Source: Coleofasciculus sp. FACHB-T130
Lineage (GTDB): Bacteria; Cyanobacteriota; Cyanobacteriia; Cyanobacteriales; FACHB-T130
Assembly (NCBI RefSeq): GCF_014695375.1
Contig: NZ_JACJOG010000046.1
Span: 62,001 to 126,000, forward strand
DNA length: 64,000 nt
Direction: 5' to 3'
The position numbers were made by a program, and so were the translations under genes. Positions 33 through 19,336 of the stretch are shown one piece after another; positions within the stretch are counted from its first letter, which is position 1, and every line of letters starts with the position of its first letter. Under the pieces are notes generated by a model. It made no database searches. It saw nothing but the letters and a program-made list of their open reading frames with translations, and was not told the origin of the DNA.

Positions 33-36
33 ATTT

Positions 37-106
37 CCCTCTGCCAACGGAATAGGATCTGGTGCTACGAACGCCGGACTTGATGGTTCGACTCCATCCA
101 GAGGGG
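37..106 (+). tRNA. tRNA-Arg (ACG), short D arm
   Basis: The acceptor CCCTCTG (37-43) pairs fully with CAGAGGG (99-105). The anticodon stem TGGTG/CGCCG (60-64, 72-76) closes a 7-nt loop CTACGAA with U33 and anticodon ACG. The T arm is GATGG-TTCGACT-CCATC. The D arm is reduced (CC with GG around AACGGAATA). No CCA is encoded. It lies 4 nt from the partial tRNA before it and 3 nt from the next one, so the array is probably cut from one transcript. The sequence differs from standard housekeeping Arg-ACG tRNAs, so it may be a specialised or decaying copy. Confidence 0.75.
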
Positions 107-109
107 TTT

Positions 110-178
110 CCCTTGCCTGCGGGATGCAGACCTAGCCCTCCGAAGGCTGGCGACCAAGTTCGACTCTTGGGCGAGGGG
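110..178 (+). tRNA. tRNA-Arg (CCG), 5-nt D loop
   Basis: The acceptor CCCTTGC (110-116) pairs with GCGAGGG (171-177) with one G-U pair. The D arm is CTGC-GGGAT-GCAG, whose loop of only five bases is unusually small. The anticodon stem TAGCC/GGCTG closes CTCCGAA with anticodon CCG at 140-142. The T arm is CCAAG-TTCGACT-CTTGG. No CCA is encoded. The Arg-CCT gene at 373 has the same acceptor type, D arm and T arm, so the two are duplicates with different anticodons. Confidence 0.78.
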
Positions 179-182
179 TTAT

Positions 183-280
183 TCCGGGATAGCTCAATAG
201 CAGAGTTCGCGGCTGTTAACCGCGTTGTTGTAGGTACTCTCCCTTGAAGGCTGTGCCTACAAGTCCTACTCCCGGAGCCA
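183..280 (+). tRNA. tRNA-Asn (GTT) with a 23-nt insertion in the T loop, CCA encoded
   Basis: The acceptor TCCGGGA (183-189) pairs perfectly with TCCCGGA (270-276), followed by G and an encoded CCA (278-280). The D arm is GCTC/GAGT. The anticodon stem CGCGG/CCGCG is perfect, with loop CTGTTAA and anticodon GTT at 215-217. The T stem GTAGG (230-234) pairs with CCTAC (265-269), but 30 nt lie between them instead of 7. Removing 235-257 would leave the loop TACAAGT, and the insert is flanked by TAC on both sides. It could be an intron-like insert, a small duplication or a decayed gene. The perfect stems argue against simple decay. Confidence 0.65.
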
Positions 281-287
281 ATTTTCA

Positions 288-363
288 CCCGTGTCCTAAC
301 AGACAAAGCATACACACTCGGCTGTTAACCGACAAAACCAAATGCTTTTTCGACTTGCACGGG
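288..363 (+). ncRNA. Y-RNA-like stem-closed RNA carrying an Asn-type anticodon hairpin
   Basis: CCCGTG (288-293) pairs with CACGGG (358-363). Inside follow TCCTAAC on the 5' side and CGACTTG on the 3' side, then the inner stem AAAGCAT with ATGCTTT. This is the same scaffold as the seven elements at 16151-18977. The distal part is only a hairpin, TCGG-CTGTTAA-CCGA (318-332), whose 7-nt loop equals the tRNA-Asn(GTT) anticodon loop of the neighbouring genes. It lies between tRNA-Asn and tRNA-Arg(CCT) in the array, about 14 kb from the Ro60-like gene. Calling it a Y RNA is inference from the scaffold it shares with the elements beside that gene. Confidence 0.65.
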
Positions 364-372
364 ATAAAACTT

Positions 373-441
373 CCCTTACCTGCTGGATGCAGACTTATTC
401 CTCCTAAGAATGGTAGCCAAGTTCGACTCTTGGGTAAGGGG
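373..441 (+). tRNA. tRNA-Arg (CCT), 5-nt D loop
   Basis: CCCTTAC (373-379) pairs perfectly with GTAAGGG (434-440). The D arm is CTGC-TGGAT-GCAG, again with a five-base loop. The anticodon stem TATTC/GAATG closes CTCCTAA with anticodon CCT at 403-405. The T arm CCAAG-TTCGACT-CTTGG is identical to that of the Arg-CCG gene at 110. No CCA is encoded. Confidence 0.78.
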
Positions 442-445
442 TTAA

Positions 446-517
446 TGCCAGATAGCTCAATGGCGGAGCAAGCGGCTGTTAACCGCAAGGTTGTGGGTTC
501 GACCCCCACTCTGGCAG
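446..517 (+). tRNA. tRNA-Asn (GTT)
   Basis: A complete cloverleaf: acceptor TGCCAGA/TCTGGCA, D arm GCTC/GAGC with a GG in the loop, anticodon loop CTGTTAA with GTT at 478-480, and T arm GTGGG-TTCGACC-CCCAC. The top pair of the anticodon stem (A-A) is mismatched. The discriminator is G and CCA is not encoded. It starts four bases after the Arg-CCT gene. It is a second Asn gene in the array and is not identical to the one at 183. Confidence 0.85.
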
Positions 518-529
518 TTTCATTTGTGC

Positions 530-601
530 GGGTGGTTGGCATATCGGCTGTGCAGCTGGCTTTTAACCAGCACCAGATAGGTTCAACTCCTATACCACCC
601 A
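530..601 (+). tRNA. tRNA-Lys (TTT)
   Basis: GGGTGGT (530-536) pairs perfectly with ACCACCC (594-600). The anticodon stem GCTGG/CCAGC closes CTTTTAA with TTT at 562-564. The T arm is ATAGG-TTCAACT-CCTAT. The D stem is only three pairs (GCA/TGC). The discriminator is A and no CCA is encoded. Its anticodon loop, CTTTTAA, is the same one shown by the minimal Y-like RNA at 16151-16220. Confidence 0.85.
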
Positions 602-9334: not shown

Positions 9335-9575
9335 TAATTATATATATTAGGGATTGCTTGCGTGCAAGTTAATAGAGCAAAGCGATCGCAATCGAAAAGG
9401 AACTCCGCTGGTTAGTTATTACACACTATTTAAAGGATAGCTACTTAATCGCTTACCTCCCAGGTTCTTCGCCCCTTCCTCCCACGTTCGCTGCTTCGAT
9501 CGAGTCGAAGCCACGGATACTTATCCTCTCGTAAACAGTATGTATGCTCTAAAAGTTAGGGCACGCAAGCATTAC

Positions 9576-10905: not shown

Positions 10906-12915
10906 TCACTCAATCCATTCAATGAAGTCTGGACATTTGGCAGCTAAATTTCTCAAAATAAGAGCATATTCTGATTGTGGATTTTTTATAGTTATAACTA
11001 AAGTATCAATTGCTCTTGTAAATGGTATCATACACCATCTATACGCAGGTTCTTCTCTTACTTTTTGTGAGTTATTTAGATTAAGGCTCAGTTGCTCTTC
11101 TTCAAAATTGTTCAATTTAGACTTTTTGTATTCAAAAAATTCATCCATTCCCAGACATACAACAGTCCAGCCTTCCAAACCTCTACAAGAGTCATAAGGC
11201 AATACGCGAATCTCTTCCACCTCTTTCGGATAGTCCGATCTATTTCCAGAGTGGGTTCCATCCCATAACTTGATACCCCATTCATTCCATTTTGGGCTTA
11301 ATTTAAAACTGCTATTAGTAACTTTTCCCTCATCACTATAAGTTTTATCAACAAGGCTTGGTGGAACTAGGAAAAGCATTTCATAAGGTTTATTGCCAGA
11401 CTCTTCACACTCATCCAGTAACCTTTGGTGCAAAGAAGGATTATACTCTTCAGATGTAATAATAATTTTTCCTCCGAGTAAGTCATCTTTTGGCTCTAAG
11501 TCCCAGGTTAATCCAACCTGTGCAGCATAGTGTTTTTCAAATCGGCATAGGTTTGCTGTTTGTCTCAGTGACCTTTTCTGCGGGACTATTGGATGATGGT
11601 CAACGCCAGTCAACCAGTCAGTTCTATTTGTACTCCGAATTAATTGGTCTATCCCATCTGCAATAATAAAATTTTTAGTTTCAAAAATAGTGAACAGGAT
11701 TTCTTTTTCATCTTCTGGCCAATCTTGACATTCATCGATTAATACCTTATCCCAAGCAACCTCATCATGCTTTTTCTTCATTAGCCGCTGGATATCATTG
11801 GTATTTAAAAGTCCTTTCTTAATATAAGAAAGCATTTTCTGTTTTAAGTCGTCATAATGCTCTATAAAATATCCGTCTTCCTGCTCGTGTATATCAATTC
11901 CAAAGCCGATCATGAGACTTCGCATGAAAGAATGTACGGTTCTAACAGCAATAGTAGGAGCGGCAATGTCATCACTAACGTGAGCGAGAGCAATCATCCG
12001 TTTAAGATCAGATACAAGAGCTTTGTTATAAGTAAGAATTAGGCAACGTTGCTCATTTTTTACATACAAATTATAGGAAATGTGAAGCAGTTTCACTGTT
12101 TTGCCAGTGCCAGCTCTGCCACGTAACACTACCAATCTTTTGCCTATAGCGTTTGCATACTTTTGATTTTTTAAAATCTCTATTTTTGTAATATTATCAA
12201 GCCTGCTTTTTGTGAGCTTGCCTATACCTTTTTTCGCTTTCTCAAAAACAGAAAATACTTCATCAAGGCCATCAAATATTTCTGAAGATTTAATCCGGGT
12301 GCAAGAAATATCCCAGTAGCCTCCACCATCACCAGGATAAAAATAAGGAAAACATTGTTCACAGGCAAGTTCTAAAATTTGAATAAATGTTGGAGTTGAA
12401 TGCAATACATTATGAGGGTAGTTCGGTAGGTCAACTAAATTAATATTTCTAAACCAAATAAAATTACAAATATAAGGACTCCACCCAATTTTATCTTTAA
12501 AAAAATTTAGTAGTGAGTATTTTTGCTGTTCGTTTTGGTTGGTTGCATCATGCCATTTATTTTTATAAAGCACTAAACTGCGAAGTGCTTCAAAACTAAT
12601 CTTTTCTATAGGATGGTCTTTCACTTCAATTACAAAACAAAAGTTTTTGATGTTGACAATTTTCTTGGAATAATCGGTTATTTTTCTACCTTGTTTACCT
12701 TTAGAGTTTAACGTACAAGGAAACGTAGAAAATTGATTAAAAACCATGATGTCTATATCTTTGGTTTCCTGTCCATACAAAGTCAAATTAGGAGCAATTA
12801 AAATTCTGCCGTTCCTAGATGGCTCAATATCTCTTTCAAAAATTGCTTTTAAAGTTTTAGCAGCTTGGTATTCATTGCTGCCTGGATTACCAGGTGTTAT
12901 CTCTACTGTAATCAT
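10906..12915 (-). CDS. NERD-domain DNA/RNA helicase
   Basis: 669 residues from the start MITVEITPGNPGSNEYQA. The first ~170 residues match a NERD (nuclease-related) domain: GSNEYQAAK, a KDIDIMVF metal-binding-type strand, and CFVIEVKDHPI. A UvrD/Rep-type helicase core follows, with Walker A LRGRAGTGKT and Walker B LIDECQDW, and TRAID near the end as the last helicase motif. NERD-helicase fusions occur in defence islands and DNA repair. The region is AT-richer than its neighbours, fitting acquired DNA. A further 32 codons upstream are open but look unlike coding sequence. Confidence 0.75.
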   Translation of the reverse strand: MITVEITPGNPGSNEYQAAKTLKAIFERDIEPSRNGRILIAPNLTLYGQETKDIDIMVFNQFSTFPCTLNSKGKQGRKITDYSKKIVNIKNFCFVIEVKDHPIEKISFEALRSLVLYKNKWHDATNQNEQQKYSLLNFFKDKIGWSPYICNFIWFRNINLVDLPNYPHNVLHSTPTFIQILELACEQCFPYFYPGDGGGYWDISCTRIKSSEIFDGLDEVFSVFEKAKKGIGKLTKSRLDNITKIEILKNQKYANAIGKRLVVLRGRAGTGKTVKLLHISYNLYVKNEQRCLILTYNKALVSDLKRMIALAHVSDDIAAPTIAVRTVHSFMRSLMIGFGIDIHEQEDGYFIEHYDDLKQKMLSYIKKGLLNTNDIQRLMKKKHDEVAWDKVLIDECQDWPEDEKEILFTIFETKNFIIADGIDQLIRSTNRTDWLTGVDHHPIVPQKRSLRQTANLCRFEKHYAAQVGLTWDLEPKDDLLGGKIIITSEEYNPSLHQRLLDECEESGNKPYEMLFLVPPSLVDKTYSDEGKVTNSSFKLSPKWNEWGIKLWDGTHSGNRSDYPKEVEEIRVLPYDSCRGLEGWTVVCLGMDEFFEYKKSKLNNFEEEQLSLNLNNSQKVREEPAYRWCMIPFTRAIDTLVITIKNPQSEYALILRNLAAKCPDFIEWIE

Positions 12916-13047
12916 TTCAGAAGCTTCATCGGCATAACAGTTGTCCTCAATTATAGTGTAAGGGCTGCTGCTCCGAGAGTCAGTACGGCATCCAAGATGA
13001 CCGCCCCTCAAGAATTACAAGCTATAACCCTAAGTGCGATCGCATCC

Positions 13048-13713
13048 TCAGCAATCCTCTTTTTCCCGCAGTTTCTCTCTTACCCACTTACGCCAAGCAC
13101 GTATAAAAGTAGTATCGTCCTGGGTTTCTGCTTGCTGTAAAAATTGATTAATAATTTCTACTGATACAAATGGAAACGTTGGACTATTCTCACAGAGATT
13201 GTATGTTCCTGTCTGTAACTGGTTAATTTCTACCCGTTCCTTAACGTAACGCCAAACTTCAGAAACTCCTAATTGACTGTAAATTTGTAGTCTTCTACTA
13301 GAGGGACTGGTAATATCAACCTCAATTACTAAATCAGGTGCAGTATCTTTGGTAAGGTCTATCGTTCTACCCTGAATGCGCTCAATATTTTGGATGTAAT
13401 AGCAAGAATCTGGTTCTGCACCACGCTGCAAATCTTCTCGATTTAGAGTTGTTGAACGAAATCCTTTTATGGGTAAGTCCAACTCTTCAGTTAATGCCTC
13501 GATCATCCGTTCCAAAAGCTTCGTGTTAGTTTCGTGGCGGTCGGACGGCATTGTAATTTCTAATACACCTCGATCGTAGGCAAGACGAGAAGAACGATTA
13601 TCCCCCATTTCAGTTAACAATGCTTGATAAGTTTGCCAACTAACCCCTTGCAGGATAACTCGATGGGTGCGTTCTCTAGGTATATCTTGAACTGGCAGGG
13701 AAGGGCTTGCCAT
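13048..13713 (-). CDS. Uma2-family (DUF820) endonuclease-like protein
   Basis: 221 residues. The fold is a PD-(D/E)XK-type nuclease as in the Uma2 family, very numerous in cyanobacteria: SRLAYDRGVLEITMPS, EPDSCYYI, and APDLVIEVDITSPS with the catalytic-type Asp/Glu. Multi-copy Uma2 proteins are often linked to mobile DNA, though their role is not settled. It is separated from the NERD helicase by about 130 bp. Confidence 0.8.
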   Translation of the reverse strand: MASPSLPVQDIPRERTHRVILQGVSWQTYQALLTEMGDNRSSRLAYDRGVLEITMPSDRHETNTKLLERMIEALTEELDLPIKGFRSTTLNREDLQRGAEPDSCYYIQNIERIQGRTIDLTKDTAPDLVIEVDITSPSSRRLQIYSQLGVSEVWRYVKERVEINQLQTGTYNLCENSPTFPFVSVEIINQFLQQAETQDDTTFIRAWRKWVREKLREKEDC

Positions 13714-13841: not shown

Positions 13842-14501
13842 TTATTCCCTACCGACCATTTGTGCAGCCACTTCTTCGGCAAAGTTGCTTTCTGGCTTTT
13901 CAATGCCTTCGCCTAACTTAAAGCGGACAAAGCGACGCACTTGGATATTTTCGCCCAGTTGGGCGACGCTTTGCTTAACCAGTTCTTCCACCACAATACT
14001 TTGGTTGCGAACGTAAGGCTGATCCATCAAAGACATTTCTTTCAGGCGTTTTTCAATTCGTCCTTGAAGAATTTTTTCTTTGATGTTTGCTGGTTTGCTA
14101 GCCAAGTCATCGCGTCCCCTTTCGATTTCTGTTTCTTTCGCAACAATTTCAGTCGGAATGTCTGCTACCTTTACATACTCCACATTCGGACAAGCGGCAA
14201 TTTGCATGGCGATGTTCCGCACCAGGGTTTGAAATACTTCACTGCGACTTACAAAATCACTTTCGCAGTTCACTTCTACTAGCACCCCAACTTTACCGCC
14301 AGTATGAATGTAGCTGTCAATAATTCCTTCTGCCGAAATACGATGGCTGCCGCCGCATGTTCTACTCATACTTTTTTGGCGCAACCATGCGATCGCTTTG
14401 GTCATATCGCCATTGGTTTCATCCAGCGCCTTCTTACAATTCATCATGCCTGCACCTGTTTGTAGGCGCAGTTGTTTGACAACTTGTGCAGTTATTTCCA
14501 C
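13842..14501 (-). CDS. tsf-like: EF-Ts paralog (diverged)
   Basis: 219 residues, the short cyanobacterial/plastid EF-Ts form. The UBA-like N-terminus with [23 protein letters not shown] is followed by the core domain with [26 protein letters not shown], and the C-terminal [22 protein letters not shown]-Ts exchanges GDP on EF-Tu. Here TDFV, a main EF-Tu contact, is SDFV, and the loop before ISAEGII is altered ([13 protein letters not shown]). Housekeeping tsf normally follows rpsB, which is absent here. The gene instead follows the Ro60-like gene, 150 bp downstream on the same strand. I infer a second, locus-specific EF-Ts; if the genome has no other tsf this reading fails. Confidence 0.8.
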
Positions 14502-14653: not shown

Positions 14654-16220
<1,567 letters not shown>

Positions 16221-16265
16221 GACAACTGCCATTATAATTTGCCAAGCAAGAGACTGTCATCCCTG

Positions 16266-16700
16266 CTAATCTAAAGGTTTCAAATCCGGTTCAGTCCAAC
16301 TTATCCGAGCTTGCCAAGACATTAAGCGATCGCGACTGTAGTATTGCAAGGGAAAAGACTTATTTCCGTAAATTTTGATAAACTCGTTAACAATATCTAC
16401 GATAGAAAAATCTTTCCCCGCAATCGACAGATATCTACTGATGAGCCGAATCCAAAATAGAGTTATGGTTTCGTGATAGCCGCTGTCGTTGGTGGTTTGG
16501 ATGCCATTCACTTTGTTGTAGTGCTGGATGCGATCGCGTATGCAATTCGTCGCTTCTGCCTTCGAGTAACGAGTGAGATACCATACTGCAACCGTTAAGT
16601 GTGCATGATGATTCCACTCGTCTCGTGGCAATGTGCAATTCTTGAATGCTGCGATTAGATTTTCTATTTCATCGACTGTCTGGTATTTCACAACGACCAT
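16266..16700 (-). CDS. Conserved protein of unknown function, coupled to the L7/L12 paralog
   Basis: 144 residues, soluble and helical. Visible conserved-looking parts are LPRDEWNHHAHLTVAVWYL, NDSGYHETITLFW, and the C-terminal YYSRDRLMSWQARISWTEPDL. I recall similar hypothetical proteins in many bacteria but no function. The His cluster (WNHHAH, GYHET) could bind metal or be catalytic; this is inference. Its ATG overlaps the stop codon of the L7/L12-like gene as TAATG, so the two are translationally coupled and likely made in fixed ratio. Confidence 0.7.
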   Translation of the reverse strand: MVVVKYQTVDEIENLIAAFKNCTLPRDEWNHHAHLTVAVWYLTRYSKAEATNCIRDRIQHYNKVNGIQTTNDSGYHETITLFWIRLISRYLSIAGKDFSIVDIVNEFIKIYGNKSFPLQYYSRDRLMSWQARISWTEPDLKPLD

Positions 16701-17083
16701 TACTTAAGAGCTACTTTCGCACCTGCTACTTCTAGCTGTTGCTTGATGTCGTTGGCATCTGCGAGAGCGATCGCTTCTTTCACCACTTTCGGCGCTGAAT
16801 CAACAAAATCTTTTGCTGACTTCAGATCCAAATTAGTCAAAGTCCGTACAACTTTGAGGATTGCAATCTTCTTATCAGCAGGAACTTCCTCCAAAACTAC
16901 ATCAAACTCAGTTTTTACAGAAAGTTCTTCACCTTTTTCCTCGATTATTTCAATAATACCTGTCTGCTGGCGAGGCGAACCATCAACTCGAAAAGTGGCT
17001 TCAACTTGCTTAACTAATTCTGCCGCTTCGGTTAGTGTTAAAGATTTTACTTGCTCTAGAATCTTAATTGTTTTTACAGACAT
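16700..17083 (-). CDS. rplL-like: Ribosomal protein L7/L12 paralog (diverged)
   Basis: 127 residues from the ATG at 17083, preceded by a GAGGAG site. The N-terminal dimerisation/L10-binding part is close to bLI2 (ILEQVKSLTLTEAAELVKQVE), then a short hinge, then the C-terminal factor-binding domain (KTEFDVVLEEVPADKKIAILK, VVRTLTNLDLKSAKDFVDSAP). The usual TGLGLKEAK is TNLDLKSAK, so a conserved Gly of the factor-binding surface is changed. Housekeeping rplL lies with rplJ in the rplKAJL cluster; neither rplJ nor rpoB is here. It sits between two Y-like RNAs and upstream of the Ro60-like gene. I infer a paralog able to recruit translational GTPases to another particle. Confidence 0.85.
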   Translation of the reverse strand: MSVKTIKILEQVKSLTLTEAAELVKQVEATFRVDGSPRQQTGIIEIIEEKGEELSVKTEFDVVLEEVPADKKIAILKVVRTLTNLDLKSAKDFVDSAPKVVKEAIALADANDIKQQLEVAGAKVALK

Positions 17084-17121
17084 CTTTATACTTCTCCTCA
17101 TAATAAAAAATGAAATATTAT

Positions 17122-17249
<128 letters not shown>

Positions 17250-18140: not shown

Positions 18141-18266
18141 GCTCCGCGCAAGTCGAAAAAGCTGTTTGAATATACACGGGAATTGAACCCGTCACGGCTT
18201 GATTATGAGTCAAGTGCTCTAACCAACTGAGCTAGTATGTAAGCTTTATCTATTAGGGCGCGAAGC
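18141..18266 (-). ncRNA. Y-RNA-like RNA with a tRNA module in normal order (CAU anticodon)
   Basis: Closing stem GCTTCGCGC/GCGCGGAGC (9 bp, one G-U); inner stem AAAGCT with AGCTTTTT. The module at 18169-18241 begins TACATACTA, has D arm GCTC/GAGC with a GG in the loop, anticodon stem CTTGA/TCAAG with loop CTCATAA (CAU), and T arm ACGGG-TTCAATT-CCCGT. The acceptor TACATAC pairs only partly with GTATATT. The D, anticodon and T arms are as good as those of a real elongator Met or Ile tRNA, but the acceptor is absorbed into the Y stem. Confidence 0.75.
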
Positions 18267-18292: not shown

Positions 18293-18438
18293 GTGTTCCG
18301 CGCAAGTTAAAAAAGCTATTCACTGGAGAGTTACCGTTACTCTACACTGCCAAATAATGGCAGCGGTAGGAATTGAACCTACATCTCCCGCTTATCAGGC
18401 GGATGTGTGTATGCTTTTCAGGTTAGGGCGCGGAACAC
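18293..18438 (-). ncRNA. Y-RNA-like RNA with a circularly permuted tRNA-Ile (GAU)
   Basis: Closing stem GTGTTCCGCGC/GCGCGGAACAC is perfect over 11 bp. In 5'-3' order the RNA has the anticodon arm TCCGC-CTGATAA-GCGGG, AGAT, the T arm GTAGG-TTCAATT-CCTAC, the 3' acceptor half CGCTGCC, a 7-nt linker ATTATTT, the 5' acceptor half GGCAGTG, TA, and the D arm GAGT-AACGGTA-ACTC. The two acceptor halves pair over 7 bp (one G-U). So the tRNA is complete but its ends are joined, and it is opened between the D and anticodon arms, where the Y stem is attached. Confidence 0.8.
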
Positions 18439-18504: not shown

Positions 18505-18624
18505 CACTTCGTACAAGTTAAGAAAGCTATAGTTAACGGGAGTTGAACCCGACCTATCGATTAATCAGTCGATTGCTCTACCACAGAGCTAGTATGTAAG
18601 CTTTTTAAGTTTGGGTACGAAGTG
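18505..18624 (-). ncRNA. Y-RNA-like RNA with a degenerate tRNA module in normal order
   Basis: Closing stem CACTTCGTAC/GTACGAAGTG is perfect over 10 bp and differs from the CGCGC type by compensating changes, good evidence that the stem is selected. The inner part has AAAAAGCT and TACATACTA as in the others. D arm GCTC/GAGC is intact. The anticodon-like stem ATCGA/TCGAT closes an 8-nt loop CTGATTAA, so no single anticodon can be read. The T arm is four pairs (CGGG-TTCAACT-CCCG) and the acceptor does not pair well. It may be decaying or freed from tRNA-like constraint. Confidence 0.65.
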
Positions 18625-18665: not shown

Positions 18666-18790
18666 GCTACGCGCAAGTTTAAGAAGCTTTTTTGACACCT
18701 CTCCATGCAGCGGAGAGGGTAGGAATCGAACCTACAATTCGGTTTCCCGAACGTTACCAGTTTGTATGCTTCTTACATCGGGGCGCGTGC
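18666..18790 (-). ncRNA. Y-RNA-like RNA with a rearranged tRNA-Ser-like body
   Basis: Closing stem ACGCGC/GCGCGT, inner stem GAAGC/GCTTC. In RNA order: ATACAAACTGGTAACG, a hairpin TTCGG-GAAA-CCGAA, T arm GTAGG-TTCGATT-CCTAC, 3' acceptor half CCTCTCC, linker GCTGCAT, 5' acceptor half GGAGAGG, TGTC, then the Y stem. The acceptor halves pair perfectly over 7 bp and G follows the 3' half, as in tRNA-Ser. The GAAA-capped hairpin stands where a class II variable arm would be. No D arm or full anticodon arm is left. It is a permuted, reduced tRNA. Confidence 0.7.
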
Positions 18791-18830
18791 CATTATTTTC
18801 AGATTAAATCAACAAGAAAATTGATTTTTA

Positions 18831-18977
18831 TCCCGCGCAAGTCAGCAAAGCTGTTATCACTTGGCGCTCTATCCGTTGAGCTACGACTGCATTAAGAAGC
18901 AGTCGGTGGGAGTCGAACCCACTACCTCCCCGACCGAAGCGGGAATGTGTGTAAGCTTCACAAATTAGGGCGCGGGA
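18831..18977 (-). ncRNA. Y-RNA-like RNA with a circularly permuted tRNA-Arg (UCG)
   Basis: Closing stem TCCCGCGC/GCGCGGGA is perfect over 8 bp. In RNA order: anticodon arm TCCCG-CTTCGGT-CGGGG (anticodon UCG), AGGTA, T arm GTGGG-TTCGACT-CCCAC, 3' acceptor half CGACTGC, linker TTCTTAAT, 5' acceptor half GCAGTCG, TA, D arm GCTC-AACGGATA-GAGC, then the 3' strand of the Y stem. The acceptor is a perfect 7-bp stem. All four tRNA arms are canonical, but the break is between D and anticodon arms. This is the first RNA after the small leading gene of the locus. Confidence 0.82.

Positions 18978-19036: not shown

Positions 19037-19336
<300 letters not shown>

Follow-up and report, generated by a model that had tools for sequence, protein, structure and literature searches.

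Why should a cyanobacterium carry a complete transfer RNA (tRNA) with its parts in the wrong order, and why hold it inside another stem? The question is raised by the minus strand of positions 18830-18977, called U1 here, in a window of 64,000 nt from Coleofasciculus sp. FACHB-T130 (contig NZ_JACJOG010000046.1). A sequence-only reading had described U1 as a circularly permuted tRNA-Arg, likened it to the permuted tRNA genes that some algae and archaea mature by splicing, and held that a bacterial case inside a Y-type stem would be new. The full permuted cloverleaf in a Y-type stem stands; the permuted tRNA gene and the lack of precedent are not supported. We are fairly confident that U1 is best explained as a Y RNA belonging to a divergent Ro60 system of cyanobacteria, with a head that mimics a tRNA.

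A permuted cloverleaf in a two-part stem

Parsed 5′ to 3′, U1 runs through the anticodon arm, T arm, 3′ acceptor half, 8-nt linker, 5′ acceptor half and D arm. These elements are enclosed by a stem of two parts, 8 bp and 8 bp, with CCCTAA-type and ACTTG-type cores between them. The lower stem pairs 18971-18977 with 18831-18837 and the upper stem 18954-18961 with 18845-18852. The 5′ strand of the lower stem, together with the CCCTAA core, covers 18965-18977; on the opposite side (18831-18842), the CGCGGGA strand (18831-18837) is joined to the ACTTG core (18838-18842), as it is family-wide. The backbone enters the cloverleaf between tRNA positions 26 and 27, where it is opened. Inside lie a closed anticodon arm (18928-18944, loop CTTCGGT, anticodon TCG), the T arm (18906-18922, loop TTCGACT), an acceptor hairpin (18884-18905) and the D arm (18866-18881). 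The acceptor hairpin is built of the 3′ half CGACTGC (18899-18905), the linker TTCTTAAT (18891-18898) and the 5′ half GCAGTCG (18884-18890), with 7/7 positions paired; CCA is not present in the linker, and as a loop closes the acceptor end there is no free CCA end.

When U1 was rotated to the normal order, ARAGORN called it tRNA-Arg(tcg), with 76% identity to a genomic tRNA-Arg(ccg). In its genomic order it was missed both by ARAGORN and by the Rfam tRNA model at the gathering threshold. The structural claims of the sequence-only reading were borne out: each tRNA element lies at its proposed place in the Y-like stem opened between 26 and 27, the 7-bp acceptor stem is perfect and the fold is complete, with an Arg anticodon.

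We then examined the fold itself. Its minimum free energy was -60.1 kcal/mol (z -4.56), and none of 200 shuffles was equally stable. RNAalifold on 16 homologues with permuted heads, run with no imposed structure, returned both Y stems, the anticodon arm, the T arm, the acceptor hairpin and the D arm, with compensated double changes at 22 of the 36 pairs. Imposing the U1 structure on the alignment left 95.6% of cells paired, against 34-48% with partners slid. The earlier proposal had named a lack of covariation between the two halves in related genomes as the result that would speak against it. All seven acceptor pairs change on both sides in the 16 homologues and none is ever broken, while the ACUUG and CC core is invariant. 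Because acceptor pairs and helices covary, the two tRNA halves of U1 coevolve, and on this point the outcome favoured the earlier proposal. U1 is a genuine, conserved RNA structure and no chance fold.

Y-like units beside a Ro60-fold gene

To which family does such an RNA belong? Positions 18863-18929 of U1 matched positions 24-84 of Rfam YrlA (RF02553), that is the T arm, acceptor hairpin and D arm, and scored 31.6 bits, with E 6.5e-4 when 6.5 kb were searched and 2e-5 for 201 bases. In its crystal structure, YrlA can be superposed on a tRNA by way of a circular permutation (PMC11472068), and according to a review its tRNA-like domain has D, T and acceptor arms (PMC8394870). Since the YrlA module is itself a circularly permuted tRNA, a permuted tRNA in a Y stem was already known from bacteria, and the claim that such an arrangement is unprecedented is not supported. 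What is novel is the complete closed anticodon arm, which is additional to the YrlA plan, and the wider family of tRNA- and ribosomal RNA (rRNA)-mimicking units. A unit from Kovacikia, opened in the anticodon loop, aligned to YrlA over its full length, from 1 to 114. The Rfam Deinococcus_Y_RNA model matched one neighbouring unit (U5, below) at E 2.6 only.

The gene adjoining the U1 array (14654-16159, minus strand, 501 aa, probable start 16087) was modelled with AlphaFold2, using 14 sequences, at a mean predicted local distance difference test score of 74.9. All 13 top PDB rows found by Foldseek with this model were Ro60/Rsr/TROVE proteins (E down to 1.3e-11, TM 0.66), and VIA-align gave Z 21.8 over 431 residues to Ro60/Rsr, the next best being single vWA domains with Z 14. 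A profile search against PDB sequences also ranked TROVE proteins first, with a weak match (E 0.18). By its predicted structure, the gene thus encodes a full, divergent Ro60 fold, a HEAT ring plus vWA.

Seven Y-like RNAs lie within 2.8 kb: U1 and six same-strand units with the same arms, down to 16149. U2 (18666-18790) has a permuted tRNA-Ser-like head with the acceptor hairpin GGAGAGG/CCTCTCC and has lost the D arm; U3 (18506-18622) carries a straight-order, Asn-like tRNA head with an 8-nt anticodon loop; and the permuted head of U4 (18295-18435), once rotated, is tRNA-Ile(gat). U5 (18141-18265) and U6 (17123-17247) bear straight tRNA-Met(CAT)-like and tRNA-Leu(TAA)-like heads, at 18168-18241 and 17149-17223 respectively, and the short-headed U7 (16149-16221) lies directly upstream of the Ro60-fold gene. 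The ARAGORN/Rfam calls Met(cat) at 18168-18241 and Leu(taa) at 17149-17223, both on the minus strand, correspond to the heads of U5 and U6, so that tRNA annotations in such loci, here these two calls, are probably wrong.

We further analyzed the distribution of the unit. Among 209 relatives of the Ro60-like protein in GTDB genomes, the best 80 were taken together with 4 viral contigs; these best 80 were all cyanobacterial but one, from an Acidobacteria metagenome-assembled genome (MAG). An arm-pairing search of 2.55 Mb of DNA around the relatives gave 544 unit matches, 425 of them distinct and nearly all cyanobacterial, versus 3 in the reversed sequence. Y-like units were borne by 73 of the 84 Ro60 loci, with 269 of 272 units on the Ro60 strand. 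The 5′ arm pattern occurred in 55 of 390 genomes of the class, mostly clustered (reversed pattern: 7 matches in 6 genomes). In Kovacikia a tRNA array adjoins the Y units and Ro60. Contigs classed as viral, including a 595-kb uncultured phage genome, bear the Ro60-like gene beside tRNA genes, in part with a 66-aa protein described below and with Y-like units. Read by eye, these units have the pattern GTCC-CC..A/ACTTGGAC and straight tRNA heads, and short heads are seen as well (L142; L143 9200-9920; L223 6800-7310).

Covariation, the Ro60 fold next door, the linkage of units to Ro60 and the YrlA match together favour a Y-like identity, and U1 is very probably a Y RNA. The same data bear on another origin, in which the units would be functionless, decaying tRNA pseudogenes caught in a mobile repeat. 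Small repeats inserted in the T loops of some heads and the loss of arms in others (U2, U3) would suit such decay, but all helices are kept by compensating changes, and the unit is conserved over many cyanobacterial genera and the Acidobacteria MAG with its strand and position by Ro60 kept. We regard this origin as highly improbable.

tRNA- and rRNA-like sequences in the heads

A complete cloverleaf might nevertheless come from a true tRNA gene in permuted form. The acceptor loop would then be cut by RNase P together with a 3′ nuclease, the Y stem would be removed and positions 26 and 27 would be ligated by RtcB to give tRNA-Arg(UCG). The full cloverleaf and the acceptance of its rotated form by ARAGORN, at the identity to tRNA-Arg(ccg) given above, are in favour, and the genome encodes RtcB genes, so that ligation is possible but unsupported. 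Against it, the linker is without CCA, and in the U1 orthologues of the two close relatives that keep U1 (G001 and G005) the T loop is interrupted by ~20-27 inserted nt. In Nostoc-type homologues the anticodon loop is cut to 4 nt (GCAA or GAAA), and other homologues open it. Anticodons that would read stop codons (CTA, TTA) were found in 18 of 132 heads, and an identical type of Y stem carries rRNA pieces in other units. No splice motif was identified, though no systematic search was made. Interrupted T loops, shortened or opened anticodon loops and stop-reading anticodons thus argue against maturation of the algal or archaeal kind, and we give a permuted tRNA gene only the slightest probability.

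Variation of the anticodon points the same way. Among straight-head pairs that share 90% identity or more over the stems and the T arm (a threshold of our own choice; the pairs are non-independent), positions 34, 35 and 36 differed in 59, 34 and 55% of pairs respectively, and U33 in 5%. With anticodons that switch fast, some of which read stop codons, and T loops interrupted in close relatives, decoding by the heads appears very unlikely on sequence grounds. The anticodons of straight and permuted heads also show a preference for A/U at 36 and for A at both 37 and 38, and tRNA-modifying enzymes that recognise the heads may be the cause.

Heads across the family were sorted with a strict classifier, whose permuted-head finder misfired on 6 of 1335 shuffled heads. 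It gave 128 distinct units with straight-order tRNA heads, 86 with permuted heads (43 distinct acceptor pairs, 83 fully paired) and 86 with short heads. A loose permuted-head classifier (225 calls) was dropped, having relabelled straight heads as permuted. Permuted heads are opened at several points: the break separates the D arm from the anticodon arm, falls within the anticodon loop or, for a few, lies in the D loop, the last being clear by eye in L005, L031, L064 and L096. As automatic assignment of the opening point failed for 34 of the 86, we claim several points and not their proportions. In many heads the T loop is broken by small dispersed repeats, which sit between GGT and AC(A/G)A as though T loops served them as target sites (L005, L061 8067, L067 9180, L100, L127, L185, L191, L195 8566 and L203).

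Other heads resemble 23S rRNA, as assigned by alignment to a cyanobacterial 23S gene. Helices 69-71 (H69-71) are found in 29 distinct heads (for example L061 7862, L108 7998 and L010 96), and a fusion of the sarcin-ricin loop (SRL) with the GTPase-associated centre (GAC) in 28 distinct heads of the fetched DNA (for example L177 6290-6501, plus strand, and 9357-9569, minus strand, in the window). GAC heads align to 23S positions ~1057-1123 with scores to 61, and H69-71 heads to ~1893-1925 with scores to 51, the shuffled maximum being 26 in both cases. With only 12-14 nt, the SRL piece barely exceeds chance when scored singly; across 27 heads in alignment, though, its position in the head stays the same and the TAGTACGAGAGGA motif hardly varies. 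SRL and GAC are ~1500 nt apart in 23S and yet neighbours in the ribosome, so the head would be a composed mimic and more than a gene that was simply captured. Within the genome from which the window comes, the large-subunit rRNA model matched two SRL+GAC heads only, the rRNA genes themselves being apparently absent from the assembly. The 3′ end of several H69-71 heads resembles sequence 5′ of H69, which suggests a permuted order for this rRNA piece as well.

A third conserved head, GGTGCGTA..TACGCTGCAAGCC..GCAGGC, was found in 20 units, often directly upstream of the Ro60-like gene; comparison with 23S and Rfam gave no match for it. Examples lie in L183 at 9171, L182 at 9484, L005 at 1370 and L102 at 3549. 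A search of a limited set of papers found no prior report of rRNA-mimicking small RNAs with SRL or GAC. An earlier mention of cyanobacterial Y RNAs is possible.

Because the heads include the 23S GAC, H69-71 and SRL, and because anticodons switch on constant stems, we favour mimicry: the heads are likely to imitate tRNA and rRNA for protein binding, not for decoding.

Neighbouring genes, possible roles and known systems

Upstream of the Y array lies a gene for a conserved 66-aa protein (19037-19237, minus strand), with a homologue in 67 of the 84 Ro60 loci. The protein ends in RPEAVYG, is predicted to be beta-beta-alpha-beta-beta and is kept in cyanobacteria, the Acidobacteria MAG and viral contigs; a structure search against PDB gave no confident match. 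Also on the minus strand are a paralogue of ribosomal protein L7/L12 between Y units (16700-17176, homologues in 29/84 loci) and an EF-Ts paralogue downstream of the Ro60 gene (13842-14501, 7/84). Two more open reading frames near the array have homologues in 32/84 and 41/84 loci. A helicase-like gene with weak AAA/UvrD/Schlafen matches (10906-13011) and a Uma2 nuclease-like gene (13048-13713), both on the minus strand and near the EF-Ts paralogue, are rare or absent in other Ro60 loci.

At the start of the window, the end of a 36-gene tRNA array enters from upstream (34-601, plus strand). This array contains one SRL+GAC unit and one Y-like unit whose head is the tRNA-Asn(GTT) anticodon arm alone (287-365, plus strand). 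Upstream of the 66-aa gene we found a promoter-like site, TTGACA-18-TAGTAT (19307-19336, minus strand), overlapped by TGTAGTAT (19307-19314), a TrcR-type site. In Anabaena, TrcR represses the trn operon through a site placed in this way over the -10 box (PMC10272220). We counted the L7/L12 and EF-Ts paralogues, the tRNA arrays and the TrcR-type promoter site as support for a Ro60 system with tRNA-mimicking heads.

How might such a system act? By analogy with Y RNA biology, the two-part stem with its CCCYRA/ACUUG core would be held by the Ro60-like ring. The ACUUG strand and the bulged C-rich opposite strand of the units resemble the Ro60 site of hY1. The head would then serve as a mimic and be no tRNA precursor, and the array would present several tRNA shapes and rRNA sites on one shared handle. 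Judging from their sequence, the heads may bind proteins that recognise tRNA anticodon arms, SRL, GAC or H69-71; such binding could titrate the proteins, as a decoy, or bring them to Ro60, as a tether, and stress on translation is the probable setting.

As a main role, a decoy would offer bait, in a stress-induced ribonucleoprotein (RNP), to enzymes that cut or modify anticodon loops or vulnerable rRNA sites, such as anticodon nucleases and SRL or H69-71 attackers. Hypervariable anticodons on constant stems, a head reduced to an anticodon arm, the fusion of SRL and GAC in one head, the adjoining tRNA arrays in hosts and viral contigs and the TrcR-type site are all consistent with it. Competitive inhibition of an anticodon nuclease was indeed proposed for YrlA by others (PMC7790460), but Salmonella YrlA was uncut by the nuclease tested (PMC7790460), and a permuted head whose anticodon loop is opened or reduced to a tetraloop would be no bait for anticodon nucleases. 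The decoy is the role to which we give most weight, short of calling it probable.

A tether or adaptor as the chief role is also possible, and we rank it only slightly after the decoy: the Ro60 ring would gain, through its various heads, PNPase, tRNA-modifying enzymes, translational GTPases or ribosomal proteins as partners. It agrees with known Y RNA biology, since a Deinococcus Y RNA joins Rsr to PNPase (PMC8394870, PMC7790460). Copies of GAC and SRL might attract L11/L10-L12 or translation factors, and the array includes a paralogue of L7/L12. A PNPase tether, however, needs no anticodon diversity or rapid switching. The data presented here do not separate decoy from tether, and other roles take the remainder.

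Taken further, and only tentatively, the locus may encode a stress-induced RNP library, in which one Ro60-like ring holds interchangeable Y RNAs as baits against attackers of the translation machinery, also on viral contigs beside tRNA arrays. We would suppose, no more firmly, that imitation tRNAs are grafted on at one of several places: the acceptor end, the joint of D arm and anticodon arm, the anticodon loop and, probably, the D loop. The same library might, again as a conjecture, display lone anticodon arms, SRL fused to GAC, and 23S H69-71.

Several observations weigh against a Ro60 system with tRNA-mimicking heads. The YrlA score of U1 is below the gathering threshold of 69, so U1 is not a strict Rfam YrlA and only Y-like, with a YrlA-type module. 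Pfam TROVE matched neither the 14654-16159 reading frame nor anything else in the whole genome. Given both results, the two partners are divergent and their contact is one that we infer. Exact TGTAGTAT was found upstream in 11 of 67 loci versus a background of 2.5%, enriched and not general. Finally, some permuted heads retain a 7-nt loop with U33, unneeded by a pure mimic of shape.

Y RNAs have been known for decades and the reason for the shape of their heads is unclear; this cluster makes it testable, by asking what binds each head. On one and the same Ro60 handle it copies many tRNAs together with the rRNA sites that are attacked most in the ribosome. In cyanobacteria, the standard Pfam model misses Ro60 systems.

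Several known systems resemble U1 or its surroundings in part. Permuted tRNA genes of algae and archaea share with it tRNA halves in permuted gene order, but are processed to tRNAs, whereas U1 has a Y stem, no CCA and homologues with decayed or stop-reading anticodons. The Anabaena trn operon and TrcR regulon (PMC10272220), like the window, combine a long tRNA array with a promoter, in the window a candidate one, carrying TGTAGTAT over the -10 box; that paper makes no mention of Y RNAs or Ro60, while here the array and the Y cluster share one contig. Ro60/Rsr (TROVE) proteins have the HEAT-ring and vWA fold predicted over the whole length of the 14654-16159 protein, at 14-16% identity, which Pfam TROVE fails to see. 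Deinococcus and vertebrate Y RNAs share with the cyanobacterial units the two-part stem, bound in those RNAs by Ro60; unlike this family, their heads do not form arrays of tRNA or rRNA copies. YrlA (RF02553; Salmonella structure 6CU1) shares with U1 the Y stem, the permuted T arm, acceptor hairpin and D arm and the place of its gene beside a Ro60 protein. Its tRNA is opened at the anticodon stem and its Rfam consensus is without a closed anticodon arm, whereas in U1 this arm is complete.
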